Part shown: positions 3,357-43,064 of the stretch, piece after piece
How the letters are laid out: each line of letters starts with the position of its first letter
Position numbering within the stretch: position 1 is the stretch's first letter
Source: a virus
DNA: 43,254 bases
Direction: 5' to 3' (one strand)
Virus record (IMG/VR): IMGVR_UViG_3300020202_000124
Span: 1-43,254 of that record
Program-made: the position numbers and the translations under genes
The notes under the pieces: generated by a model
Database searches by the model: none
Seen by the model: the letters and a program-made list of their open reading frames with translations, nothing else
Told to the model about the DNA's origin: nothing

Positions 3357-3480
3357 CCGACCATGCGAAGAACTCCCGACTTTTCAGTGCTCGCGCCTGG
3401 TAGGGGCCGCCGCGAAGTCGGGCATGGATATGTCCTCGCTCATGGTCGGCAAACTGCGAGCAGCAGGCGGCCCCTACTAG
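3356..3480. other. Densely self-complementary region (structured RNA or attachment site)
   Basis: Four sets of complementary arms lie within 125 bp: 3356-3365 with 3441-3450 (10 bp perfect), 3375-3382 with 3415-3422 (8 bp), 3388-3394 with 3456-3462 (7 bp), and 3397-3411 with 3466-3480 (14 of 15). The last pair crosses the first two, so they could all form only as pseudoknots or as alternative folds. The region lies between the integrase and the first gene of the next operon, where a phage attachment site or a regulatory leader would be expected. An ATG at 3363 opens a frame continuous with the next gene but lacks a ribosome site. Confidence 0.5.
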
Positions 3481-3506
3481 ACGCGACCACGAAAGGTGCT
3501 GAGACG

Positions 3507-4507: not shown

Positions 4508-4785
4508 GCGACACGATCGTGGGCGTCCCCCCGTCGCCGCCAGTGGACGACCTGCCCGAGGCCGTCGCCGAGGTGGCGCCGACCGTCTCGACCCGACGCG
4601 CGCTGCGGATGCTGCTGCAGGCCCGGGCGCTGTGGACGGAGATCCGCGAGCTGGAGGCGACGGCGAGCCAGAAGCGGATGGAGCTCGCGAACCTGGTCGG
4701 CCAGAACGCGGCCGAGTTGTCGGCCGGGCTCGCTCACGAGGACTGCACGGCACTGCTGGCGTGGCTGGGAGAGGCGGCGCGATGA
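4504..4785 (+). CDS. Small helical hypothetical protein
   Basis: A 93-residue product with its ATG in an ATGA overlap on the upstream side and another overlap (4782) downstream. A Pro-rich N-terminus precedes a long helix (ALRMLLQARALWTEIRELEATASQKRMELANLV) that may form a coiled coil. No family recognised. Confidence 0.65.
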   Translation: MSDTIVGVPPSPPVDDLPEAVAEVAPTVSTRRALRMLLQARALWTEIRELEATASQKRMELANLVGQNAAELSAGLAHEDCTALLAWLGEAAR

Positions 4786-4940
4786 GGCCGACGCTGCGGT
4801 CATGGCAGGAGCTGCTCGAGCTGCTGAACGAGGAGCGCCAACGGATTCTGGCGCAGCCGTACACGACGTCGGCCAGCAGGCGGCTCGAGGCGGTGGACGA
4901 CATCGAAGACGACATCTGGGAGCGCCTACAGAATGGCTAG
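4782..4940 (+). CDS. Short helical hypothetical protein (52 aa)
   Basis: ATG 4782 lies in an ATGA overlap with the preceding stop, and the frame ends at 4940, overlapping the initiator gene that begins at 4933. Two helices are suggested (WQELLELLNEERQRIL; RLEAVDDIEDDIWERLQ). Length and coupling fit a genuine small early gene. Function unknown. Confidence 0.55.
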   Translation: MRPTLRSWQELLELLNEERQRILAQPYTTSASRRLEAVDDIEDDIWERLQNG

Positions 4941-5799
4941 GTACAGGAAGGTCGACGTCAGGATCTGGCTCGACGAGAAGGTGCGGCGGCTGACTCCCAT
5001 TCAGCCGTGCGGGCAGGGGCTCTGGTACTACCTGTTGACCAACCCGCACACCGGGAACATTCCCGGGCTCTATCGCGCCGGTGAGGCGGCCATCGCCGAA
5101 GACCTGGGGTGGTCGACGAAAGCCTTCCGGCAAGCCTTCGGGGAAGTCTTCCGGGAAGGCTTGGTCAAAGCCGACTGGTCGTCACGCGTCGTCTGGATCC
5201 CCGGCGCCATCAAGTACAACCGGCCGGAGAGTCCCAACGTCGTTCGCGGCTGGTCCATCCACTGGGACGAGATCCCGGGCTGCGATCTGAAGACGGAGGC
5301 GTATGCCTTCCTGAAAGCCTACCTGGAAGGCTTAGGGGAAGGCTTCGGCAAAGCCTTCGACGAAGCCTGCCGCCAGCCTTGGTGCCACCCTTCGCCTAAT
5401 CAAGAGCAAGAGCAAGAACAAGAGCAAGAAACACTTGGTGGCCTTCGCGTCTCTGACCTGGTCATCGAGGTAATCGCACACTATCGCACCTATCACCCGC
5501 GCTCGTTCCGACTGCCGACGTCGAACCTCCGCGAATGGCGGAAGATCGCCGGGCACTTACGCGCTGGCTACACCGTCGCCGAGCTGTGCTCGGTCATCGA
5601 CGCGTACGAGCGCGACCCGTGGCACCAGGGGCAGAACGACCGCGGGAAAAAGTACGACTCGCTCGAGCTCTACATGCGCGACGAGGAGCACGTGCGGCGT
5701 GGCCTCGAGATGGCCGGCGAGCCGAAGCAGCAGCAGCTACTCGACCCGGTGCTGGCGCTGCACGAGCAGATCGCGGCCAGAGGAGCCGGCGCACGATGA
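4933..5799 (+). CDS. Replication initiator / helicase-loader-like protein (phage O type)
   Basis: A 288-residue protein resembling phage replisome organisers. The N-terminal half (about 1-130) looks like a winged-helix domain found in O-like and DnaD-like proteins (KVDVRIWLDEKVRRL, then GLWYYLLTNPHTGNIPGLY). A low-complexity EQEQEQEQE linker (about 157-166) leads to a helical C-terminal domain with WRKIAGHLRAGYTVAEL. The downstream neighbour is the primase-helicase, overlapping by 4 nt, which fits an initiator that recruits it. The gene carries two arrays of 12-bp repeats, so it may contain the origin as lambda O does. The KAF/EGL four-residue repeats in the protein are those arrays translated. 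Confidence 0.75.
   Translation: MARYRKVDVRIWLDEKVRRLTPIQPCGQGLWYYLLTNPHTGNIPGLYRAGEAAIAEDLGWSTKAFRQAFGEVFREGLVKADWSSRVVWIPGAIKYNRPESPNVVRGWSIHWDEIPGCDLKTEAYAFLKAYLEGLGEGFGKAFDEACRQPWCHPSPNQEQEQEQEQETLGGLRVSDLVIEVIAHYRTYHPRSFRLPTSNLREWRKIAGHLRAGYTVAELCSVIDAYERDPWHQGQNDRGKKYDSLELYMRDEEHVRRGLEMAGEPKQQQLLDPVLALHEQIAARGAGAR
5120..5172 (+). repeat. Iteron-like array 1 (12-bp tandem units)
   Basis: Four consecutive 12-bp units begin AAGCC, AAGCC, AAGTC and AAGGC (5120, 5132, 5144, 5156), followed by a partial AAGCC at 5168. The core AAGCCTTC is near-palindromic. Location inside the initiator gene suggests origin binding sites. Confidence 0.65.
5315..5380 (+). repeat. Iteron-like array 2 (12-bp tandem units)
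   Basis: Five consecutive 12-bp units start at 5315, 5327, 5339, 5351 and 5363 (AAGCC/AAGGC cores), with a partial AGCCTT at 5375. It has the same core and period as array 1, 143 bp away. The purine-rich CAAGAG hexamer run at 5401-5430 follows, as low-stability tracts follow iterons in lambdoid origins. Confidence 0.65.
5401..5430 (+). repeat. CAAGAG hexamer repeats
   Basis: Five near-identical CAAGAG/CAAGAA units encode the QEQEQEQEQE linker of the initiator. The top strand is almost pyrimidine-free, so strand asymmetry is strong beside the iteron-like array. Confidence 0.6.
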
Positions 5800-8350: not shown

Positions 8351-8587
8351 CTACTCGGGCTCGCCGAATAGCGCCCGATTCGCCTCAGGCGGTCCGCCGA
8401 GACTCACGTATCGGTTGGCCACGGCGCGCGCCCAGCGGGGCACCGTCGACCGCTCGGCGGCGGCGCAGATCTCATACGCGCGCAGCTCCTCGTCGGTCAC
8501 CCGGAAACTGATGACGTGGCGGGCGGGGTTGGCCGAGGGCGGACGACCCGCCCCCGGGGCGCGCTTGCGGCGTTTAGCTGACGACAA
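8351..8587 (-). CDS. Ribbon-helix-helix-like DNA-binding protein
   Basis: A 78-residue product read from TTG 8587, which has GGGAG 5 nt upstream on the minus strand; an ATG at 8635 would add 16 residues and overlap the upstream gene by 62 bp. A basic Pro-rich N-terminus precedes HVISFRVTDEELRAYEICAA, a strand then helix typical of RHH/CopG-like or antitoxin-like repressors. It is the second gene of a minus-strand pair whose promoter carries a palindrome, so it may repress its own operon. RHH assignment is by pattern only. Confidence 0.55.
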   Translation of the reverse strand: MSSAKRRKRAPGAGRPPSANPARHVISFRVTDEELRAYEICAAAERSTVPRWARAVANRYVSLGGPPEANRALFGEPE

Positions 8588-9125
8588 AGGCGCTCCCAAA
8601 CTTGGCCTTGTGAGCGGCGCAGTAGGCGTCGACAAAATCCTGCTCGGACGTCCAGTTCTCGGCGGTGTGAAGTTCCTCGCGGAGATCCTCGTCCATCAGG
8701 ATCGCCGCGACCTTGGCTGGGCCGGTCCAGTTTCCGACGGTGACGATCGCATCAAGGCCACGGCCGGCGGCGACGGCAGTTTCACGGCGAGCGCCCGTGC
8801 GACGGTGAGCGCGGCCAATCGGACACGCCCCGCCGGTTCTCTCAAGAGTCTCGTTCGTATGAATGCGCCCACAGTCGCCACACTCAAGCGGGACATCTTC
8901 GATCACAGGGGCGAGCGCGGCCAGTTCTGCGGCGCCGACGTCTCCCGCCTCAATGCGCGCGTAAACCTCCGCGGACACCTCGCGGACCGTCAGCTCGTCT
9001 GCGTCCGGGGCGCCCTCCTGCTCGGCAGCGTCGGCCAGCGCCTCGTCCTCGGTTCGACCGATACCCCAGGCCACCGGGCGCATGCCGTCGTTACCAATCG
9101 CCGCGAAAAATTTCTCGTTCGTCAT
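8574..9125 (-). CDS. Accessory protein with central zinc ribbon
   Basis: A 183-residue minus-strand protein. ATG 9125 is chosen because AGGAG lies 7 nt upstream; ATG 9161 would sit almost on the predicted transcription start. It has an acidic N-terminal domain (WGIGRTEDEALADAAEQ), then ECGDCGRIHTN with a second Cys further on (zinc site), and a C-terminal NWTGPAKVAAILM ... WTSEQDFVDAYCAAHKA domain. I recall similar pieces in uncharacterised phage proteins. It shares an operon with an RHH-like gene, which suggests a self-regulated accessory module. Function unknown. Confidence 0.7.
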   Translation of the reverse strand: MTNEKFFAAIGNDGMRPVAWGIGRTEDEALADAAEQEGAPDADELTVREVSAEVYARIEAGDVGAAELAALAPVIEDVPLECGDCGRIHTNETLERTGGACPIGRAHRRTGARRETAVAAGRGLDAIVTVGNWTGPAKVAAILMDEDLREELHTAENWTSEQDFVDAYCAAHKAKFGSAFVVS

Positions 9126-9167
9126 CGTCTCTCTCCTCTCGGCCGCGTCCATCGCGACCATGGGAAG

Positions 9168-9203
9168 ACGATAACCCGGGTTCTAATTTCTGTCTACAGA
9201 AAT
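9168..9203 (-). promoter_or_regulatory. Minus-strand promoter with overlapping palindromic operator
   Basis: On the minus strand TAGACA (9196-9191), a 17-nt spacer and TATCGT (9173-9168) form a good sigma-70-like promoter for the genes at 9125 and 8587. The -35 lies inside ATTTCTGT-CT-ACAGAAAT (9186-9203, 8-bp arms), a likely operator that would block RNA polymerase when bound. Confidence 0.6.
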
Positions 9204-9214
9204 AAGGACAGTGG

Positions 9215-9745
9215 GTGTCCGATTCTGGCTGGTGCGTCATGAGGCGGAAAATCACGGTAATTGCCGCCGCCCTCGCGCTCCTCGCCCTGGGCGCCGCCAT
9301 CGGGCGATGGTCGGCGCCGGCCCGCACCGAGGACCGTATCGTGCTCGACGAGCGGGAGCGGGTGGTCTACCTGCGCCGGGTGGAGTCGGTCCACACCGAC
9401 CACGCTCGCGACGTTGTTCGCTGGCGCTGGACCGAGACCAAGCGCCCCGACGGCACACTCGAGCGGGAGACCGTGGCCGAGCGCAATCACGAGCGCGAGA
9501 CGCGAGCGGCGACGACGAGCCAGGAGGGCGCGGCCACGATACGCGAGCGGCACATCGAGCGGGTGCGCACCGTCGAGGCTGAGCGACCGCGTCTGATGCT
9601 GGGCGCGCACGCCCGCCTGCAGCTCGACGGCCGCATCGGGTGGGGGCCACAGGCGGCGGTGCGTGTGGCCGGGCCTGTGGTGGCGACGGCAGCTGTCGAT
9701 GTGCCGCGGCGAGCGCTGATGCTGGGCGTGGGGGTTTGGTGGTGA
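9215..9745 (+). CDS. Membrane-anchored helical protein (possible spanin-like)
   Basis: A 176-residue product with an N-terminal membrane segment (ITVIAAALALLALGAAIG), a long charged, helix-forming region with many Glu/Arg/Thr, and a beta-rich C-terminus (LMLGAHARLQLDGRIGWG...). GTG 9215 has AAGGA about 6 nt upstream; ATG 9239 is an alternative that keeps the membrane segment. The architecture resembles inner-membrane spanins or anchored phage proteins of the VVYLRRVE type. It lies far from the endolysin, so a lysis role is tentative. Confidence 0.6.
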   Translation: MSDSGWCVMRRKITVIAAALALLALGAAIGRWSAPARTEDRIVLDERERVVYLRRVESVHTDHARDVVRWRWTETKRPDGTLERETVAERNHERETRAATTSQEGAATIRERHIERVRTVEAERPRLMLGAHARLQLDGRIGWGPQAAVRVAGPVVATAAVDVPRRALMLGVGVWW

Positions 9746-10071
9746 GTATCCCCGGCGTCTACGTCCTGCCCTGGGGCCTGCGCCATGTGCTGCGCTGGCT
9801 GTTCACGTTCGCCGCGTGGCTAGGCAATAGGTGTCGGCCGCTACCGTTCGCCAACGGCATCGAGGCATTCACGCCCGGCCCAATCACGCTGGCGTTCGTA
9901 AAGCGTCCGTCGCCGGACGTTGTGGTTCACGAGTACTACCACCAGGCGCGGTGTCGCGAGCTCGGGCTGCTCCGGTACTGGTGGCTGATGACATCGCAGT
10001 ACGTGAGGCATGGGTACGCGGACGCGCCCGAGGAGCGAGCCGCGCGGATCTTTGCGGGACAGGAGGATTGA
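9742..10071 (+). CDS. HExxH putative metallopeptidase-like protein
   Basis: A 109-residue product from a GTG overlapping the preceding stop. VVVHEYYHQARCRELG (His63, Glu64, His67) is a gluzincin-type zinc motif, and the Glu residues of PEERAARI near residue 98 could supply the third ligand. A hydrophobic N-terminal segment (WLFTFAAWLG) may bind membrane. Small HExxH proteins of this kind occur in many phages without known substrate. Catalytic activity is inferred from the motif only. Confidence 0.65.
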   Translation: MSIPGVYVLPWGLRHVLRWLFTFAAWLGNRCRPLPFANGIEAFTPGPITLAFVKRPSPDVVVHEYYHQARCRELGLLRYWWLMTSQYVRHGYADAPEERAARIFAGQED

Positions 10072-11477: not shown

Positions 11478-11501
11478 TGCCCCGGTGTTAGGATCGGGGC
11501 A
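11478..11501 (+). promoter_or_regulatory. -10 box inside a start-codon hairpin
   Basis: TAGGAT (11489-11494) lies exactly 6 nt before the ATG at 11501, so transcription could start on the A of the start codon. The box also lies in the loop of TGCCCCG (11478-11484) / CGGGGCA (11495-11501). In a longer read-through mRNA that stem would hide the start region. Confidence 0.5.
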
Positions 11502-11641
11502 TGGTCGTGCGCGGGCGAGTCATCGAGCTGACCGACGACGGCGCAATCGTCGAGGATGCTGACGGCGTGCGGTGGCTCGTCACGCTGCTGGGGACCGAGA
11601 TAGAGGCAGAGACTGACCCCGGGGACGTGGCGGAGGCGTAG
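11501..11641 (+). CDS. Short hypothetical protein (46 aa), probably leaderless
   Basis: A 46-residue acidic peptide (begins MVVRGRVIELTDDG) with a beta-type N-terminal half and a GDVAEA tail. It may form a small beta hairpin. The start follows a TAGGAT box by 6 nt, and the stop is 2 bp from the convergent gene ending at 11644. No family recognised. Confidence 0.5.
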   Translation: MVVRGRVIELTDDGAIVEDADGVRWLVTLLGTEIEAETDPGDVAEA

Positions 11642-11643
11642 GC

Positions 11644-11931
11644 CTAGCTGCCGGCAGTAACAGCGGCCTTGATGGCCTCCAGTCGCTCGGTATTGCCATT
11701 AGCCGGCAGCCGCGTCGCCCGCGTCCTGTAGCAGTACCAGGCCCATTCCCAGTCGGGAGCAGTCCCAGCCGGCGGCGCCACCCACCACCACCGCAGCCTC
11801 TCCCTCTCCAGCAGCTCATCAGGCACACCCGGGGCCTTCCCCACCGCATTCCGGGCAGTGAGAGGTTCTGAGGTAGGTCGTTCGGCTGTACCTACACGGT
11901 CGTGGACGACTGGCGAAGAGCTTTCCGGCAT
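11644..11931 (-). CDS. Trp-rich hypothetical protein
   Basis: A 95-residue minus-strand frame. The N-terminal third looks disordered. The rest (LERERLRWWWVAPPAG; DWEWAWYCYRTRATRLP; TERLEAIKAAV) has a natural protein-like composition with many Trp. The overlapping plus-strand frame is implausible (very Arg-rich). Its end abuts the plus-strand gene ending at 11641. No clear ribosome site precedes the ATG, so a downstream start is possible. Function unknown. Confidence 0.45.
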   Translation of the reverse strand: MPESSSPVVHDRVGTAERPTSEPLTARNAVGKAPGVPDELLERERLRWWWVAPPAGTAPDWEWAWYCYRTRATRLPANGNTERLEAIKAAVTAGS

Positions 11932-12145
11932 GTGCGGTTTCCCCGTGACCGCGCCGTGTCCGCTCGCAAGGCCGTCCCCATCAGGTCCCGGCCTGGTCTC
12001 CAGTCGTGGCGTTTCCGTGTCCGTCTGGCCTGCATGACACCCGTTGTCTGCGACTCGCGGGTCAATTGGCAGTGTGTCGGAGGGAAGCGGAACGGGCTAG
12101 GTGCGGGACTAGTGACGGGGCATAGAATTCGCGTGCGTGCGCGTG

Positions 12146-12151
12146 TAGCGT
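12146..12151 (+). promoter_or_regulatory. -10 box (TAGCGT) for leaderless gene
   Basis: TAGCGT ends 6 nt before the GTG at 12158, the same spacing as at 11489, 12476, 14105 and 16436. No good -35 is visible. A second box, TAGAAT, lies at 12123-12128. Confidence 0.5.
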
Positions 12152-12157
12152 GTATAT

Positions 12158-12433
12158 GTGCCGAGTCTCGCAGCGTTGAGGTGGCAGATGCCCCCGGGAC
12201 GATGGGGCGAGCGGTATTCGCCGGATGACGTTGCGCGAGTGCTCAATGTGACGAGCTCGCTGGTCATCAAGTGGATTAAGAGCGATTGGCTGCGTGCAGC
12301 TGAGCCGCGACCGGGCGTGTACAAGATACGGCGCAAGGCGATTAAGCGGGCGCTGGGCGACGTGCGCGTGTTGCAGTCGCTGTACGACGCTTGGGCGAAG
12401 AGCGGTAAGCCGGGGCTGGGCGCGCTGAGGTAG
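12158..12433 (+). CDS. MerR/excisionase-like HTH protein
   Basis: A 91-residue protein with a typical helix-turn-helix of the HTH_17/excisionase kind: YSPDDVARVLNVTSSLVIKW, then SDWLRAAEPRPGVYKIRRKAIKRAL, in which the wing ends in a YKIRR strand. Such proteins act as phage excisionases or small transcription factors. GTG 12158 fits a leaderless start 6 nt after TAGCGT; ATG 12188, with GAGG 6 nt upstream, would give 81 residues and still include the domain. It is not next to the integrase, so regulator and Xis are both possible. Confidence 0.7.
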   Translation: MPSLAALRWQMPPGRWGERYSPDDVARVLNVTSSLVIKWIKSDWLRAAEPRPGVYKIRRKAIKRALGDVRVLQSLYDAWAKSGKPGLGALR

Positions 12434-12475
12434 CCGCGTAGTTCGGCGACGGTAAGCGTGAGACTGCGCTTGTGC

Positions 12476-12481
12476 TAGGCT
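12476..12481 (+). promoter_or_regulatory. -10 box (TAGGCT) for leaderless gene
   Basis: TAGGCT precedes the ATG at 12488 by exactly 6 nt. The flanks (GCTAGGCT then a short gap to ATG) closely resemble those of the gene at 16448. Confidence 0.55.
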
Positions 12482-12487
12482 TGGCGC

Positions 12488-12664
12488 ATGAAGCTGAATG
12501 AGCCCGCGTTCACGATAACGGTTGACGGCCAGTGGGCCACGCTGCGGATGACGGTCAACGGTGAGCCGCATGCGCTCAAGGCGGACCTGACAGCAACGCC
12601 GGTTGATAAGGCCGTTGCGATGCTGGCGCGGTCGGCGAGAGTGACGGCGATGGCTGCAGCGTGA
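12488..12664 (+). CDS. Short hypothetical protein (58 aa), leaderless
   Basis: A 58-residue peptide with a beta-hairpin-like start (FTITVDGQWATLRMTVNGE) and an Ala-rich helical end (DKAVAMLARSARVTAMAAA). There is no Shine-Dalgarno sequence; the start follows TAGGCT by 6 nt. It stands as its own transcription unit. No family recognised. Confidence 0.55.
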   Translation: MKLNEPAFTITVDGQWATLRMTVNGEPHALKADLTATPVDKAVAMLARSARVTAMAAA

Positions 12665-13214
12665 GGTCGCGATTCGTGGCCTAGATGCACATCACGGGGC
12701 GGGGATGTGCAGCGTGGTGTACATCTCGCGTGGCTGAGATGGATGCGGGGTGGGGGTGGGAGTGGAATGAGGTCCCGCTTCCCCCATCTCTCGGCAATCG
12801 CAAAACAGTGCCGCCGTCGCCCGATGCGCGATTTTGCCCAACGACCAACGACGGTTCGTTCGCCTGGATTGAATCAACTCGGGCGCGTTGTTGCTCAATG
12901 AGCGCGCGCTGATTGGTTGTGATTTCGCGCAGTTGCATTGCTGCCATCGAGCCCGCGTGTATCTCAGTCAGATGTACTCGGGGGTCCGCGCTCGTTGGAA
13001 TTGACCGGGGGGATCGGCGGGGCACAACCGGCCCCCCGGGGGCAAAAAGAGATCGCGAAATCAAAATCGTCCTACCCCCACGCACAAGTTTGGTCTTTTC
13101 AAATCCCGTCACGCTTCCCAGGTGCAGGCGGGCAGCAAATTGGTGCTCGGTTTATTTCCCGACTGGCGACACCGCTCTTGAAGCAATGTCCCCCGTTACT
13201 CCTGCCGCCAGTCC
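12665..13214. other. Long stretch without a convincing gene
   Basis: About 550 bp in which no plus-strand frame looks real. Minus-strand frames (12681-13112 and 12692-12898) exist but have odd compositions and no ribosome sites. It holds TTGACC at 13001-13006 and a strong GC hairpin, CCGGGGGG (13005-13012) / CCCCCCGG (13032-13039), without a T-tract. Local AT content is higher around 12900-12960 and 13040-13190. It could carry control sites for the accessory region. Confidence 0.4.
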
Positions 13215-13247
13215 CCCAGTGACAGTCACGCTTCCGTCCGGTAGGGT
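13215..13247 (+). promoter_or_regulatory. Promoter CCCAGTGACA-17-TAGGGT
   Basis: GTGACA (13219-13224), a 17-nt spacer, then TAGGGT (13242-13247), 7 nt before ATG 13255. The same 10-base CCCAGTGACA, the same 17-nt spacing and the same TAGGGT occur on the minus strand at 17357-17389. This makes it one of the two best-supported promoters here. Confidence 0.65.
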
Positions 13248-13254
13248 CTTGTGC

Positions 13255-13449
13255 ATGGAGTCCGAAACGCGCGAGTACCAGGGCGGGCCACGGTTCCACG
13301 AGGCGGTGCAGGCGCTAAGGCGGGTTGTCGCGGACAGGGCTATGGCCATGCGAGGGACGTCGCTGCCGCCGATGTCATTGATGTTGCTGGACGATGCTAT
13401 TTTGGCCGCCGCCTACGCCGTGGCCACGTTGCAGGAGCCGCAGCCGTGA
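13255..13449 (+). CDS. Small helical protein (64 aa), leaderless
   Basis: A 64-residue product (begins MESETREYQGGPRF) with two predicted helices (FHEAVQALRRVVADRAMAMR; LMLLDDAILAAAYAVATL). Translation probably starts on a leaderless mRNA from the promoter at 13215-13247. The stop overlaps the GTG of the next gene (13446), making it the first gene of a four-gene unit. Function unknown. Confidence 0.6.
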   Translation: MESETREYQGGPRFHEAVQALRRVVADRAMAMRGTSLPPMSLMLLDDAILAAAYAVATLQEPQP

Positions 13450-13715
13450 GCAAGCACAGTCCTGGGCCGTGGCGCGTAGAACCGGGGCACCGTGAGGGCC
13501 ACCTGCGCATCGTCGGCGGCGCCGGGGCTGATATCGCCGACGTGTTTGCGGGGCCGAATACAGCCCGTCTTATCGCCACCGCGCCGAGGCTGCTGAAGGA
13601 GCTGAAGGCGGTGTACATGGCGACGATGGAGTACATAGACCGGGAGGGCTCCTGTCCCGAGGTCGACCTCGTCGGGATCGAGGCCCTCATCCGCGAAATC
13701 GAGGGCGAGGAATGA
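13446..13715 (+). CDS. Phage HSPGPWR-type small protein
   Basis: An 89-residue product from a GTG in a GTGA overlap. It opens KHSPGPWRVE and contains ADIADVFAGPNTARLIATAP, then LLKELKAVY. This signature (SPGPW ... ARLIA-APELL) is very widespread among small uncharacterised phage proteins. The fold is probably a small beta sheet plus a helix. Its role is unknown despite how common it is. Its next neighbour starts at 13712. Confidence 0.75.
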   Translation: MSKHSPGPWRVEPGHREGHLRIVGGAGADIADVFAGPNTARLIATAPRLLKELKAVYMATMEYIDREGSCPEVDLVGIEALIREIEGEE

Positions 13716-13957
13716 CCCCGACCGACGAGGAGCTGGAGGCGGTGGCCATTACCCTGGCCGAGGCCATCCCATGCGATCACGGCAGCCTGTGCAGCCACAG
13801 CCGCGAGGCAGCTCGGCTAGCGTTCGCGGCCATCGCCCCGCTGGTCTTGGAACGGGCGGCGAGGGAGTGTGAGTTTGGCGTCGCCGGCCGCATCGAGGTG
13901 AACCAAGGACTGCTAGTCGCCGCCGACCGCATCCGCGCCCTGAAAACCAAGCCATGA
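13712..13957 (+). CDS. Small helical hypothetical protein
   Basis: An 81-residue product with its ATG coupled to the upstream stop. Mostly helical (DEELEAVAITLAEAIPCDHG; EAARLAFAAIAPLVLERAARE). Residues CDHGSLCSH could bind a metal. It belongs to a class of short phage proteins that often follow the SPGPW protein. No function known. Confidence 0.65.
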   Translation: MTPTDEELEAVAITLAEAIPCDHGSLCSHSREAARLAFAAIAPLVLERAARECEFGVAGRIEVNQGLLVAADRIRALKTKP

Positions 13958-14100
13958 CCTGTGCCCTATGCCGCGCCCCCGTGCAAAACGCGCAGTACGT
14001 CCACCGCCCCTGCTCCCGCTGCCAGCGCCCCGTCCCGGTCTGCTGGCTCTGCGGCGACGGCAAGGACAGCGGCGCGGTGTCGTTCGAGCACGGCTGTTGA
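13954..14100 (+). CDS. Zinc-ribbon peptide (48 aa)
   Basis: ATG 13954 overlaps the preceding stop. The 48 residues carry CALC, CSRC and CWLC pairs plus a terminal Cys, enough for one or two zinc sites. Very small Cys-pair proteins are frequent in phage genomes and may bind nucleic acid or host proteins. Last gene of the unit starting at 13255. Confidence 0.6.
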   Translation: MTCALCRAPVQNAQYVHRPCSRCQRPVPVCWLCGDGKDSGAVSFEHGC

Positions 14101-14104
14101 GTGC

Positions 14105-14110
14105 TATCCT
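14105..14110 (+). promoter_or_regulatory. -10 box (TATCCT) for fibre genes
   Basis: TATCCT lies 6 nt before the ATG at 14117. There is no Shine-Dalgarno sequence, so a leaderless transcript would start the fibre pair. Confidence 0.5.
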
Positions 14111-14116
14111 GCCTAC

Positions 14117-14587
14117 ATGAGGCGCACTGTTGCGGCGATTCTCGGGACCCGCGCCCCGAATTCGCCCGATGCCGCTGTCGAGTGGGCAAAGCGCGCAGCA
14201 ATCGCCATTGACGAAATTCAGCGCCGGGCCAACGACGAATACCGCGGCGTATTCACGCACACCACGACCAACACGGCGACGTTCGAGACCGCCTGGACGT
14301 CCGACAGCCTGCCCGAAAACAGCGCCTCGGCCGTAGACGCTGAGATTATCGCGCTGGCGACTGACGGTTCCGCAGCTCGTTACAGGATCGCGGGGCTGTT
14401 CAAGCGCGCCACGGGCACGGCTTCGCAGGTGGGCGCCACCGCCGCCGTTGTGCCGGCAATCGAGGACGTCGCCGGCTGGGCGGTGCAGTTCTCGACGTCT
14501 GGCAACTCCGCCTTGGTGCAGGTCCAGGGCGACGCTGCCAGGGTTGTCGGCTGGACCGTCTACGTCACCGTGCGGGAGCTCGTGTAG
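14117..14587 (+). CDS. Virion-associated protein preceding the fibre
   Basis: A 156-residue product. The N-terminal part is helical (PDAAVEWAKRAAIAIDEIQRR). The rest is rich in Thr, Ala and Ser with a beta-like C-terminus (VGWTVYVTVRELV). It overlaps the large fibre gene by 1 bp and probably assembles with it as an adaptor or small baseplate-like part. The start at 14117 fits the TATCCT box; the frame upstream is open but overlaps the zinc-ribbon gene. Confidence 0.6.
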   Translation: MRRTVAAILGTRAPNSPDAAVEWAKRAAIAIDEIQRRANDEYRGVFTHTTTNTATFETAWTSDSLPENSASAVDAEIIALATDGSAARYRIAGLFKRATGTASQVGATAAVVPAIEDVAGWAVQFSTSGNSALVQVQGDAARVVGWTVYVTVRELV

Positions 14588-16404
14588 TGGCTGTCTGGCT
14601 AATCAACACCAACCCGACCGTGACCGGCTGCCCGGGAGCTCAGCCTGGTGACCAGGTCATCGACCAGTCGACGGGGACGGTCTACATCAAGACGGGCACC
14701 GGCAGCACGGCCTTTACGCTCGCGACGTCGTCTTTCGGCGGCGGTGTCGCTGGACCGCATACGCACGACCAGTCGGATGTCACGGGGCTGACGACGGCGC
14801 TGGACGGCAAGGCGGCGACGTCGCACACGCACGCGCAGGCAGACGTCACTGGGCTAGTTTCGGCGCTGTCCGGTAAGGCGGACTCGACGCACACACACGC
14901 GCAGTCGGACGTCACGAACCTGACGACTGACCTGGCCGCCAAAGAGTCCACGGCGAACAAGAACGCCAACAGCGGCTATTGCGGTCTCGACTCCAGCGGC
15001 CTCGTGCCGGCGGCGCGAATGGGCTCCGGCGGCGCAGACAATACCGTTTTCCTGCGCGGTGACCGCACCTGGGCCGCCCCTGCCGGCGCCATCACGGTGC
15101 GCGAGGCCGACGCTACGCCCGAGTACACGGGCGTGACGATCCTGGAGGCTGACCAGGCGGGTGGCCTCACTGTCACCCAGCCGGGAGCGAGCCGCGCCAA
15201 GCTGAGCGTGATCTTCGGCGTCAGCTCCGGCACTGCATGCGCGGGCAATGACTCGCGACTGAGTGACGCCAGGACGCCTACTGCGCACGCGACATCGCAC
15301 AGGCACGGCGGGGGCGATGAGGTAGCCACGGCGACGCCAGCGGCGAACGCAATCCCGAAGGCCGAGTCAGGCGGGACGCTAGCGATTGGCTGGATCCCCA
15401 CCGGCTCGTCGTCCTCGACGGTCTGCATCGGCAACGACAGCCGCCTTAGTGACGCGCGGACGCCGACGTCGCACGCGGCCTCGCACCAGAACGGCGGCAG
15501 TGATGAGATCGCGACCGCCGCCGCGACCGCCAACGCCATCCCGAAGGCTGGCGCAGGGGGAACGCTCGCCATCGGCTGGATTCCGACCGGCTCGACGTCG
15601 TCCACCGTGTGCATCGGCAACGACTCGCGGCTGTCCGATGCTCGCACACCGACTGCGCACGCCACGAGCCACAAGAGCGGCGGCTCCGATCCGATCAAGC
15701 TCGACGAGCTGGCGGCGCCCACGGATATCACGACGCTGAACGCGAGCACGACGGCGCACGGGCTCTTGCCAAAGCTCAGCGGGACGACAACGACGTTCCT
15801 GCGCGGCGACGGGACTTGGGCTACGCCCGCTGGCGGCTCGACCGACAAGGACGAGCAGTACTACAGGCACATTGGCACCACGCCCTTCGAACGCTGGTAC
15901 ATCGCCGGCCTGGCAAACGCTACGGCGATAACGACGGGCGCGCCGAGCGTGAACGTCCTGCGCGCGATGCCGTTCCTCGCCACCCGCGGCGGGACGCTCG
16001 GCAAGATCTCGATTCGCGTCACCGCGGCCGTCGCCGGCACGGGCCGCCTCGGCATTTACCAGGCGACGAGCGACACAAACTTGTACCCGAACACGCGAAT
16101 TCTGGACGCCGGCACGGTGGACCACGGCACCACCGGCGTCAAGACGCTGACGATCTCCCAGGCGCTCACGGCGAACACGCTCTACTGGCTCTGTCACGTC
16201 GGCAGCTCGGCGGCGACGATTCACTGCCTCGCGCTCGCCGGTGCGTTCCCGATTTTCGGCATCGACACCGGCTTTGGCACAGCGCCAGGCGTCGGCGTGA
16301 GCGTCGCGTTCACGTTCGGTGTCCTGCCGGCGACGTTCCCCACGGGCGGATCGGTCATCACGGCCACGCCCATACCCGCCATCGCGGTGCAGTTCTCGGC
16401 GTAG
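14587..16404 (+). CDS. Tail fibre protein with repeated beta motifs
   Basis: A 605-residue fibre. The N-terminal repeats HTHDQSDVTGL / HTHAQADVTGL / HTHAQSDVTNL (about 55-115) are the His-rich shaft motif of many phage fibres. VFLRGDRTWAAP and TFLRGDGTWATPAG mark standard fibre junctions. Three 62-residue repeats with GNDSRLSDARTPT follow. The C-terminal about 190 residues form a compact beta-rich domain probably used for receptor or glycan binding. GTG 14587 shares its first base with the preceding TAG. It lies apart from the main virion cluster, as acquired or exchanged fibre modules often do. Confidence 0.85.
   Translation: MAVWLINTNPTVTGCPGAQPGDQVIDQSTGTVYIKTGTGSTAFTLATSSFGGGVAGPHTHDQSDVTGLTTALDGKAATSHTHAQADVTGLVSALSGKADSTHTHAQSDVTNLTTDLAAKESTANKNANSGYCGLDSSGLVPAARMGSGGADNTVFLRGDRTWAAPAGAITVREADATPEYTGVTILEADQAGGLTVTQPGASRAKLSVIFGVSSGTACAGNDSRLSDARTPTAHATSHRHGGGDEVATATPAANAIPKAESGGTLAIGWIPTGSSSSTVCIGNDSRLSDARTPTSHAASHQNGGSDEIATAAATANAIPKAGAGGTLAIGWIPTGSTSSTVCIGNDSRLSDARTPTAHATSHKSGGSDPIKLDELAAPTDITTLNASTTAHGLLPKLSGTTTTFLRGDGTWATPAGGSTDKDEQYYRHIGTTPFERWYIAGLANATAITTGAPSVNVLRAMPFLATRGGTLGKISIRVTAAVAGTGRLGIYQATSDTNLYPNTRILDAGTVDHGTTGVKTLTISQALTANTLYWLCHVGSSAATIHCLALAGAFPIFGIDTGFGTAPGVGVSVAFTFGVLPATFPTGGSVITATPIPAIAVQFSA
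15238..15705 (+). repeat. 186-bp tandem repeats in fibre gene
   Basis: The segment encoding CxGNDSRLSDARTPT recurs at 15238, 15424 and 15610, an exact 186-bp period. Such in-frame repeats allow fibre length change by recombination. Confidence 0.75.
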
Positions 16405-16435
16405 GAATTCCAGCCGCGTGACGCGGTTGCGCTGC

Positions 16436-16441
16436 TAGGCT
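16436..16441 (+). promoter_or_regulatory. -10 box (TAGGCT) for leaderless gene
   Basis: TAGGCT sits 6 nt before the ATG at 16448, with GTGACG at 16418-16423 upstream at a short spacing. The context matches the box at 12476. Confidence 0.55.
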
Positions 16442-16447
16442 GGACAA

Positions 16448-16723
16448 ATGCCGGCGCGCCCCACCGACCCGGCGGCAATTGACGGCTATCGTCGTTGTGC
16501 GGCTGACATCAAGTCCCTGATCGAGACGTGGGCCGGCTGCTCCCGGTTCAACGCCAGAAAGCTGTCCGACCGCTGGCGCCGGGACGTGAGCGTCGAGGCG
16601 GCCAGGCTGATGGAGCGGCTGTTGCCGGCGATCGATGCGCTCGCCGAGTGCCCGACCCGGGACGTGGACTTTGACGACCTGCTAACGCCGATCGCCGACG
16701 AGATTACCGAGACCGACCTTTGA
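16448..16723 (+). CDS. Helical hypothetical protein (91 aa), leaderless
   Basis: A 91-residue helical protein (DGYRRCAADIKSLIETWAG; ARLMERLLPAIDALAEC; DFDDLLTPIADEITETDL). There is no Shine-Dalgarno; the start follows TAGGCT by 6 nt. The 3' end overlaps the convergent minus-strand gene by 42 bp. No family recognised. As a solo leaderless unit it may be expressed in the lysogen. Confidence 0.6.
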   Translation: MPARPTDPAAIDGYRRCAADIKSLIETWAGCSRFNARKLSDRWRRDVSVEAARLMERLLPAIDALAECPTRDVDFDDLLTPIADEITETDL

Positions 16724-17158
16724 CACATCAATGCCCAAGGATTTCGCGATGAAATTCGCCCGCTGTGCGCCCGCGTGGGCTGCGCAGGGGCTGCCTTCGA
16801 TCGCACTGTGCAGGTCAATTTCGGTTTCGTTGCCTAGGCGGTCCACGGCGATTAGGCGAAGATTGAAAGTGGTGTCGAGGGCGAACCACAGGTTGTAGTA
16901 GGCCAGCAGTTTCCAGTCCGATAGGCGATTCGTGACTTCGACCTCGTAGACAAACACGTCGAGCGAATCCGGGAACTGGGTCGACTCGGCTATGCGCCAG
17001 GCGTCGGGCACCACGCCGCACTTTCTGATTGCCTCGACGATGCCGTTGGCAAAGTGGTCGGCGACGGCATCAATGAGCTTGTTCTTGAAGTCGTGGGTTT
17101 TTGCCCCGTGCTTCTCTTTCAGCCCGTCCACTAGCCGATTGTGCGATTCGCCGGGCAT
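16682..17158 (-). CDS. Accessory protein with nuclease-like pattern
   Basis: A 158-residue minus-strand protein. FPDSLDVFVYEVEVTNRL (about 62-79), then DWKLLAYYNLWFALD and NLRLIAVDRLG, resembles the strand arrangement of PD-(D/E)XK-fold proteins (Pro-Asp, then E-V-E at 72-74), although the usual Lys is not obvious. A metal-dependent nuclease or a degenerate relative is therefore possible but unproven. It follows a zinc-finger gene (17162-17350) and probably shares its leaderless promoter. The layout resembles a phage moron or defence gene. Confidence 0.6.
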   Translation of the reverse strand: MPGESHNRLVDGLKEKHGAKTHDFKNKLIDAVADHFANGIVEAIRKCGVVPDAWRIAESTQFPDSLDVFVYEVEVTNRLSDWKLLAYYNLWFALDTTFNLRLIAVDRLGNETEIDLHSAIEGSPCAAHAGAQRANFIAKSLGIDVSKVGLGNLVGDRR

Positions 17159-17161
17159 GGC

Positions 17162-17350
17162 CTACTCCATCACCGGCTGCAGCGCCTGGCAGTCGCAGGC
17201 CTTGCACCTGCCGTCCTGGCCGTGCATCCCGCGGCGGTGCTCGCACGTGCACCAGTTCGACTCGCGGGGGCCGAACGTGTCGCCGTGGTTGCGCAGGTAA
17301 TCGTCAGTGGCGTGTTTCGAGCTGAACGGCGCTTTGCTTAGGTACCGCAC
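17162..17350 (-). CDS. Small zinc-binding protein (62 aa)
   Basis: Read from GTG 17350 on the minus strand. CTCEHRRGMHGQDGRCKACDC contains five Cys and two His, a zinc-ribbon or treble-clef-like motif seen in small phage proteins. The start follows a minus-strand TAGGGT box by exactly 6 nt, so the mRNA is probably leaderless. It ends 3 bp before the start of the second gene of the unit. Confidence 0.65.
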   Translation of the reverse strand: MRYLSKAPFSSKHATDDYLRNHGDTFGPRESNWCTCEHRRGMHGQDGRCKACDCQALQPVME

Positions 17351-17356
17351 GCAATA

Positions 17357-17389
17357 ACCCTACCCAACGGAATTACGAATGTCACTGGG
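17357..17389 (-). promoter_or_regulatory. Promoter CCCAGTGACA-17-TAGGGT (minus strand)
   Basis: On the minus strand GTGACA (17385-17380), a 17-nt spacer and TAGGGT (17362-17357), with GTG 17350 starting 6 nt later. Both elements and the spacing repeat those of 13215-13247 exactly. Confidence 0.65.
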
Positions 17390-17394
17390 ACTTG

Positions 17395-17459
17395 TGTTGC
17401 CGTAATTGCTTGCGGCAAGCAGCCTGTCACTAGGCGGCCCTACTAGTGACACGGCAACA
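17395..17459. promoter_or_regulatory. Three-way-junction-like inverted repeats over a start codon
   Basis: TGTTGCCGT (17395-17403) pairs with ACGGCAACA (17451-17459). Inside lie TGCTTGC-G-GCAAGCA (17407-17421) and TGTCACTAG (17425-17433) / CTAGTGACA (17443-17451). The GTG start at 17446 sits in the last arm. The nested set could form a junction in RNA, or serve as operator dyads between the minus-strand promoter and the packaging genes. Confidence 0.5.
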
Positions 17460-22068: not shown

Positions 22069-22285
22069 TCAAGCGCTCGAACACATCGCGAACTGTGTCG
22101 AAGAAGGAAAGCTCGACGAGGCGAAAATCACCCGAGGCGGACTCAGGCTCTGCAAAACCATCCTCGGGCAAATTCTCAATCCACCGGAGCCGCGTCCGGC
22201 TCCCGTTGAGGAAGAGTTCATTGACCCCGCGGCCCTCAAAAAAGTGACGAAGGCAAAGCAGAATGGCCACAGTCAAAATCCGTAA
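21956..22285 (+). CDS. Small helical head-cluster protein
   Basis: A 109-residue product from TTG 21956, which has GGAG 6 nt upstream, inside the 3' end of the portal gene. Helical core: QLLVKWLQEQRDQALEHIANC, then EAKITRGGLRLCKTILGQIL. It has a natural composition, whereas the portal tail in the other frame is Gly/Pro/Ala-rich. A role in head assembly or portal function is inferred from position. Similar short helical proteins sit after portals in other podoviruses. Confidence 0.65.
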   Translation: MSEQSKTHWPDLVESDLAPWRAEPVSQLLVKWLQEQRDQALEHIANCVEEGKLDEAKITRGGLRLCKTILGQILNPPEPRPAPVEEEFIDPAALKKVTKAKQNGHSQNP

Positions 22286-22880
22286 GCCGCGCCCGCTGTT
22301 TCGGGCTGAACTGAAGGACGCGCCGGCTCACCCGCTCGGCGAGCGCGTACTGGTGCGGGAGTTCCCGGTGGAGGCTGAGACCGAGGGCGGGCTCGCGCTC
22401 GCCGACGTCGCCAAGCAGCACTACTACGCCGGGACGTTGGTAGCGGTTGGCGACCAGGCCGCCGATAAGCTCTATGACATCGGCGTCGAGATCGGCGACG
22501 AGATCTGGTACGCGAAGTACGCCGGCATCGTCGAGAAGTGGCAGCACATCGTCGCCGACGGTAACGACCCGAACTGCGTCCACGACAGTGCGTGGGAGTT
22601 CGTGCCGAAGGATGACCCGGCCTGGAAGACGTGTATTACCGGCGAGCCGAACGAGAACATGGAGCTGCGCGCTTGCCGGACGTGCGGCGCGAAGAAGCTG
22701 AGCGAGCGAGTGATCCTGTTGAGCGTCGATGACCTGGCGCTCGACGTTGATTTGCAGGTGCGCCTAGAGCGCGGCGAAGTGCAGCGCGTTCGTGACGTGG
22801 ATTCTGAGGGCCGCACGCGATACGTGCTCAAGCGCATCGCCGGCCACACGGACAGTCTCGAGATTCGAAAGGAGCGATAG
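22263..22880 (+). CDS. GroES-like co-chaperonin with C-terminal extension
   Basis: A 205-residue protein. Residues about 20-95 match the Cpn10 fold: HPLGERVLVREF, the mobile-loop-like TEGGLALAD (GroES GGIVL), AGTLVAVGD and GDEIWYAKYAG. By analogy with T4 gp31 it would cap host GroEL while the capsid protein folds; its place between portal and scaffold supports this. The C-terminal about 100 residues are not in GroES. They contain CRTCGAKKLSER (possible zinc site) and a basic end. Domain identity is seen in sequence; client and function are inferred. The start overlaps the previous gene by 23 bp. Confidence 0.8.
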   Translation: MATVKIRKPRPLFRAELKDAPAHPLGERVLVREFPVEAETEGGLALADVAKQHYYAGTLVAVGDQAADKLYDIGVEIGDEIWYAKYAGIVEKWQHIVADGNDPNCVHDSAWEFVPKDDPAWKTCITGEPNENMELRACRTCGAKKLSERVILLSVDDLALDVDLQVRLERGEVQRVRDVDSEGRTRYVLKRIAGHTDSLEIRKER

Positions 22881-42306: not shown

Positions 42307-43064
42307 GCGACCGCTGGTGGGCCGAGCGCAAGGTGCGGTTCTCGTACCTGAAGAACATCGCCAAGTCCCCGGCGCACTACTTGGCGGGGCTCAAGGGCGG
42401 GCGGCAAACCGGGCCGATGCGCCTGGGCTCGCTCGTGGACTGCATCCTGTTCGGCGGCAAGCAGCCCGTGGTCTACGCGGGCCGGCGCCAGGGCAAGGCC
42501 TGGGACCAGTTTCGCGAGGAAAACCAGGACAAAGACATCGTGTCGCTGGATGAGTACGCGACGGCCAATGCGATGGTTGAGGCGATTCGCGCTGACCCGC
42601 ATGCGTCGCGCGTGCTTGAGGGCGAGCGGCGATGCGAGATCAACTGGAGGTACCTGGGTCGCGACTGCCAGTCGCACCCGGACGTGCTCAATCCCAGCTG
42701 CTGGGTTACCGATCTGAAGACGTGCGCGACGGCGCAGCCGGACCGGTTTCGTGGCTCCGCGCTCCGGTACGGCTATCACGTGCAGCTCGCGTCGTACCAA
42801 CTGGCATGCGAGGCGGCTGGAATCCCGGTGCCGCCCGAGGCGTACCTAGTGACTGTCGAGTCGGCGGAGCCCTACCCGGTCGTAGTTCACCAACTCACCG
42901 AACGGGCGTTGGAGCAGGGGCGCAAGATCTGGCGGACGTGGTTCGAGCAACTGCTGATGTGCGAGGCGGCGGGGCACTTTCCGGGCTATTCGCAGTCGGT
43001 GGTCGCGTTCGACACTGACGACGAGCTCGAACTGACGTTTGGCGATGAGGCGGAGGCTGCGTGA
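42303..43064 (+). CDS. Exonuclease VIII-like (RecE/PDDEXK) nuclease
   Basis: A 253-residue nuclease of the exodeoxyribonuclease VIII-like class. After KVRFSYLKNIAKSPAHYLAG and GPMRLGSLVDCILFG comes the active site: a CQSHPDVL stretch (Asp) and WVTDLKTCA (Asp and Lys of D-x-K). HVQLASYQLACEAAG is the conserved Tyr/Gln helix. It would resect double-strand ends for phage recombination with the protein encoded just before. ATG 42303 overlaps the preceding stop. Length is normal for the family. Confidence 0.8.
   Translation: MSDRWWAERKVRFSYLKNIAKSPAHYLAGLKGGRQTGPMRLGSLVDCILFGGKQPVVYAGRRQGKAWDQFREENQDKDIVSLDEYATANAMVEAIRADPHASRVLEGERRCEINWRYLGRDCQSHPDVLNPSCWVTDLKTCATAQPDRFRGSALRYGYHVQLASYQLACEAAGIPVPPEAYLVTVESAEPYPVVVHQLTERALEQGRKIWRTWFEQLLMCEAAGHFPGYSQSVVAFDTDDELELTFGDEAEAA

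Follow-up and report, generated by a model that had tools for sequence, protein, structure and literature searches.

TANNNT boxes set against start codons suggest leaderless accessory units in a temperate phage genome

Why do a number of small genes in a phage accessory region open directly behind a TANNNT hexamer, and do they form one regulon or a set of independent units? The window analyzed here, the whole 43,254-nt stretch of IMG/VR record IMGVR_UViG_3300020202_000124, is a 43-kb viral record of ~65% GC with integrase, primase/helicase, terminase, portal, capsid, and RecE-like genes. The integrase is of the tyrosine type, and the phage is temperate. Just downstream of the integrase gene (3387-3490) lies a 25-nt inverted repeat, 88% complementary with arms 54 nt apart, which is possibly an att site or a terminator, and a GroES-like co-chaperonin gene (phrog_3188) is found between the portal and capsid genes (22263-22880). 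The host has high GC and is probably an actinobacterium. The primase matched mostly actinophages and the terminase and portal mostly proteobacterial phages. A prophage search of genome contigs with MCP and terminase alignments gave no match.

Eight boxes at a fixed distance from the start codon

An earlier note on this DNA had listed seven units with a TANNNT box 6 nt, once 7 nt, ahead of the start codon. All seven boxes were found at these spacings, N7 belonging to the box at 13242, and our recount agrees that five of the seven read TAGGNT. An eighth box, overlooked in that list, was added: TATCGT-N6-ATG at 9161 on the minus strand, opening a 195-aa gene.

Four of the eight units are of the extended −10 type, with TGN directly before the box. 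Unit 1 (11489..11641, plus strand) has TGT-TAGGAT (11486-11494), N6, and ATG 11501 and encodes 46 aa with no assigned function. Unit 3 (12476..12664, plus strand), with TGC-TAGGCT (12473-12481), N6, and ATG 12488, and unit 6 (16436..16723, plus strand), with TGC-TAGGCT (16433-16441), N6, and ATG 16448, encode proteins of 58 and 91 aa, respectively, likewise with no assigned function. Unit 5 (14105..16404, plus strand) has TGC-TATCCT (14102-14110), N6, and ATG 14117, which opens a 156-aa gene; its second gene (14587-16404, plus strand) is tail-fibre-like and carries PF12789 tail repeats.

Three units have instead a −35 hexamer matching at 5/6 positions exactly 17 nt upstream of the box. In unit 4 (13219..13957, plus strand), GTGACA (13219-13224) precedes TAGGGT (13242-13247), N7, and ATG 13255 of a 64-aa gene, which is followed on the same strand by two overlapping Shine-Dalgarno (SD)-led genes (13446-13715 and 13712-13957). 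Unit 7 (16682..17385, minus strand) has GTGACA (17385-17380), TAGGGT (17362-17357), N6, and GTG 17350 and encodes a 62-aa Cys-rich protein (17162-17350) and then an SD-led 158-aa gene (16682-17158). Unit 8 (8574..9203, minus strand) has TAGACA (9196-9191), TATCGT (9173-9168), N6, and ATG 9161 of the 195-aa gene. Unit 2 (12146..12433, plus strand), with TAGCGT (12146-12151), N6, and GTG 12158, has neither TGN nor a −35; it encodes a 91-aa HTH_17/MerR/Xis-like DNA-binding protein.

The absence of SD sites, claimed for all of the original seven, was confirmed ahead of six of the eight starts. The remaining two have SD-led alternatives downstream and in frame: ATG 12188 behind GAGG in unit 2 and ATG 9125 behind GAGGAG in unit 8. 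The statement that replication and virion genes stand outside the set needs qualification, as the unit at 14117 runs into the tail-fibre gene at 14587-16404.

To examine the spacing, the window was scanned for each TANNNT-Nk-[AG]TG that begins a coding-like ORF of 40 codons or more. The distance to the ATG or GTG was N6 in seven cases and N7 in one, with none at N0-N5 or N8-N9. Among 65 starts from our own gene calls made without a motif bonus, to which start 16448 was added by hand, six had TANNNT at N6/N7 (P ~9e-8) and none at N0-N5 or N8-N18; without the bonus, the caller picks the downstream SD-led starts over 12158 and 9161. The excess over shuffled sequence that the earlier note had proposed to look for was not found with TANNNT-N6/7-RTG over the whole window (12 vs 15.0 ± 3.8 in dinucleotide shuffles), because coding DNA here is TA-poor. 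It was found with TAGGNT-N6/7-RTG, which occurred five times vs 1.2 ± 1.1, the maximum among 100 shuffles being 4. ORF-opening codons are the meaningful place to test, and raw counts over the whole window are uninformative. By position, boxes precede 8 of the 28 unit-first genes in the window, all inside 9-17.4 kb; the fraction is 8/11 at 8.3-17.7 kb vs 0/17 elsewhere (Fisher p = 5e-5).

Promoter anatomy and control of the units

TGN or a 5/6 −35 at N17 accompanies seven of the eight boxes vs 12 of the 114 TANNNT sites in the window (p ~1e-6), and seven of those 12 sites are the putatively leaderless starts. TGN and −35 are mutually exclusive among the eight. At sigma-70 promoters an extended −10 makes up for a missing −35, and such exclusion is expected on that basis. 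A scan for consensus promoters with TATAAT found none in the window, as expected since the boxes are TAGGNT. Judged from these sequence features, the boxes very probably belong to promoters of the sigma-70 type whose mRNAs are leaderless.

The reading that we favor, and consider highly likely, is that the window holds eight autonomous accessory units with host-type promoters against their start codons, transcribed as leaderless mRNAs. Each unit would have its own promoter for the main (sigma-70/HrdB/SigA-type) RNA polymerase of the host, four relying on the extended −10 (TGN) and three on a −35 close to consensus and spaced by 17 nt. With only 6-7 nt between TANNNT and the ATG or GTG, transcription would start at the start codon, and the ribosome would initiate on that codon itself, without an SD site. 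Leaderless translation would apply to the first gene per unit, and the genes downstream (13446, 13712, 14587, and 16682) would be reached via SD sites or overlaps. Such a unit would be a moron-like module, active at whatever stage the host polymerase reaches its promoter. Local repressors, for example a protein binding a palindrome over the 9161 promoter, would be an exception to this autonomy.

The palindrome in question, ATTTCTGT-CT-ACAGAAAT, is perfect, spans the −35 of the 9161 promoter (9186-9203), and has its sole copy in the window there; by its placement it is a probable operator. No operator common to most promoter regions was found among shared 7/8-mers and inverted repeats. CCAGTGAC occurs in three promoter regions and serves as the −35 in two of them. 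Among the promoters, CTAGTGAC half-sites were found only near 17350 and 12158: a dyad, GTCACTAG-N9-CTAGTGAC, at 17426-17450 precedes the minus-strand unit that opens at 17350, and the promoter of the HTH gene has a half-site nearby, at 12109-12116; the sole other copy lies at 42846. Since TANNNT is a plain host-type −10, its recurrence can be explained without a common regulator. Intrinsic terminators between the units were no more frequent than chance, so it is through the promoters that the units appear independent, and an Rfam search gave no match.

The product of unit 8 (8574-9161, minus strand) matches AcrIC5 over its C-terminal 45 residues (Pfam PF22147, E 1.3e-12; PDB 7yhr, E 1.2e-10 over 41 residues). 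The solved AcrIC5 chain has 60 aa and this product 195, and it is possible that the protein is a type I-C anti-CRISPR fused to an N-terminal part without assigned identity. Actinobacteria carry orthologues of AcrIC5, which inhibit type I-C CRISPR (PMC7913775). Weak matches to the AcrIC5-like domain were also seen in Microviridae, and a single-sequence structure model of the protein was poor (pLDDT 47) and was set aside. From the domain match, a counter-defence role for this unit is plausible and is offered as a lead only.

The HTH gene in two diverged relatives

No close relative of the window was found among 50,697 phage records, nor by single-sequence searches with the terminase and portal. 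Contigs L009 and L010 were retrieved with the MCP, and L021 with an alignment of terminases. This gave two diverged relatives: G002 (L010/L022; 21.5 kb), with 61% terminase and 80% capsid identity, and L021 (14 kb), with 71% terminase identity. Searches with units 2, 6, and 8 in the phage collection returned no relative or weak domain-only matches, and 8574-9161 and 14117-14587 had none in viral contigs. Of the eight units, the HTH gene alone could be traced into the relatives, and the evidence for conservation comes from this gene.

The homologue in G002 (46% identity to the unit 2 protein over 67 aa) opens with TATAGT-N6-ATG, and the weaker homologue in L021 (25% over 92 aa, E 0.002) with TAGACT-N6-ATG. 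Neither has an in-frame start upstream, and in G002 the next start falls inside the HTH domain. A leaderless-type start thus precedes the HTH gene in all three genomes. Profiles put all three proteins in the HTH_17/MerR group, and a structure model of the unit 2 protein (pLDDT 73.5, modest) weakly resembles BldC and the Xis of mycobacteriophage Pukovnik (E 0.01-0.03). The leaderless boxes in the relatives lack both TGN and a −35.

A further gene differs in its arrangement between genomes. In the window, gene 9742 lies inside an operon and has no box, whereas its homologue in G002 stands alone on the minus strand and opens with TATCTT-N7-ATG; the contrast indicates that this kind of start accompanies the first position in a unit. 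The window gene (9742-10071) encodes 109 aa with a HEYYH (HExxH-like) motif, and its G002 homologue is on the opposite strand. In L021, two adjacent genes open with an identical 20-nt sequence, CGGTAGACTAGAGGCATGGC, at 260-300 and 660-695; each time the −10 box contributes a TAG that is the stop codon of the preceding ORF or lies near its end.

Two other features of these genomes were recorded. A C-run non-coding stretch of ~0.5-0.8 kb, which may be a packaging site, an origin, or a regulatory region, lies behind the HTH gene in each of the three genomes (window, 12665-13254; L021, 1126-1620; L022, ~4780-5600). L010 has a 190-aa minus-strand gene (1694-2400) with two TTGC-N7-GCAA dyads and TTGACT in its promoter region and an SD-led start, features that mark it as a repressible unit of the SD-led and not the leaderless kind.

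Independent units, rival explanations, and known systems

The existence of a leaderless family, as the earlier note proposed it, is strongly supported by the spacing spike, the well-placed −35 or extended −10 elements, the missing SD sites, and the conservation in two relatives. Chance matches picked by eye would agree with the raw count over the whole window being no higher than in shuffles, but not with the probability obtained at real gene starts, the independent −35/TGN signature, or the arrangement kept in the relatives, and we give this explanation practically no weight. A more serious contender holds that the boxes are real −10s but that some units, those at 12158 and 9161, are translated behind short leaders from SD-led ATGs 30-36 nt downstream. 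GAGG and GAGGAG stand at a proper distance from these ATGs, both of which the caller prefers without the bonus, but the HTH homologue in G002 begins at its TANNNT-N6-ATG and has no such downstream start, and the other six units offer no SD alternative. We regard short leaders as a possibility of somewhat less than even weight.

The remaining rivals accept the units and differ in when they would be used. Unmodified host polymerase might turn on the whole set right after DNA entry, before phage regulators, as early or constitutive accessory and counter-defence genes. Host-type promoters require no phage factor, and one unit carries a domain like that of the type I-C CRISPR inhibitor AcrIC5 (PMC7913775); however, a recognizable counter-defence domain is found in only one of the eight, in a protein much longer than AcrIC5, and the tail-fibre unit fits badly, which leaves this proposal unlikely. 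Less likely still, and not supported here, is the coordinated lysogeny regulon suggested by the earlier note, in which the prophage would express all eight units with its lytic genes shut off and would use leaderless starts as part of the program. A tyrosine integrase is present, host-type promoters would work in a lysogen, the units include an AcrIC5-like domain and a DNA-binding protein, and the same starts are found at lambda cI and SV1 gp29, with boxes also at Giles gp42 and gp46. Against this stand the mixed promoter types (three −35, four extended −10, and one weak), the lack of a common operator, a unit 5 that leads to a tail-fibre-like gene, and a common TANNNT that any host-type promoter would be expected to show. 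Independent moron-like units explain the set better, because a lysogeny regulon would require control in common, of which no sign was found. Some units may plausibly be expressed in lysogens nonetheless, by analogy with the known lysogeny genes lambda cI and SV1 gp29, which show this arrangement. As a speculation to which we attach little credence, leaderless initiation might itself be an expression class, separating accessory genes (regulator, anti-CRISPR-like gene, tail-fibre unit, and small unknowns) from replication and virion genes with SD-led starts and favoring their translation when SD-led initiation is restricted, e.g., in dormancy or stressed lysogens.

Leaderless units alone do not establish a new mechanism. 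Leaderless host-type promoters can, however, flag accessory units with transcription of their own in phages of high-GC bacteria, and they offer a route from sequence alone to such units, to the correction of start codons, and to the choice of candidate counter-defence or regulatory genes.

As controls, four high-GC phages plus lambda were scanned in the same way as the window. The scan recovers lambda cI, whose mRNA from PRM is a classic case of a leaderless transcript, along with the SV1 repressor gp29 and Giles gp42 and gp46. The two Giles genes have TANNNT N7 at their annotated starts and are leftward genes of the block beside a Cro-annotated gene; in the phiC31 integrase gene the box lies 24 nt before the annotated start. 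TANNNT at N5-N8 was found at 1/34 annotated unit-first starts in phiC31, 2/26 in Giles, and 1/18 in SV1. The units described here resemble lambda cI and gp29 of Streptomyces phage SV1 in being phage genes with TANNNT-N6-ATG, but those are single repressor genes, whereas the window has a battery of accessory units and no recognizable immunity repressor. They resemble phage morons, such as phiC31 gp32 (annotated "transcribed in lysogens"), in being small solo genes near the terminase, some on the strand opposite to their neighbors; unlike morons, they have no detected flanking terminators. The start-associated sequences (SAS) of cluster K mycobacteriophages, as mentioned in PMC11373665, are similar in that a short repeat abuts several starts, as do the two identical 20-nt copies in L021; in the window, what the starts have in common is limited to the −10 hexamer and its spacing, and the likeness is one of arrangement.

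The closest parallel is in bacterial hosts. Leaderless genes, recognizable by TANNNT ~12 bp upstream of the start, make up ~20% of actinobacterial genes (PMC3160421) and are documented in both Actinobacteria and Deinococcus-Thermus (PMC3160421, PMC12340547). As in those genes, the −10 would put the transcription start on the ATG or GTG, without an SD site and at high GC, and a −35 is scarcely or not needed (PMC3160421, PMC3898074, PMC12340547). In M. tuberculosis, TANNNT is the −10 of 73% of primary starts, and TGN, which increases promoter activity, is present at 7% of TANNNT promoters (PMC3898074) vs four of the eight here. Leaderless TANNNT genes are thus already known in hosts, and the novelty is modest; unlike the host genes, those described here belong to a phage and are gathered in one accessory region, and this concentration, with its partial conservation, is what is new.
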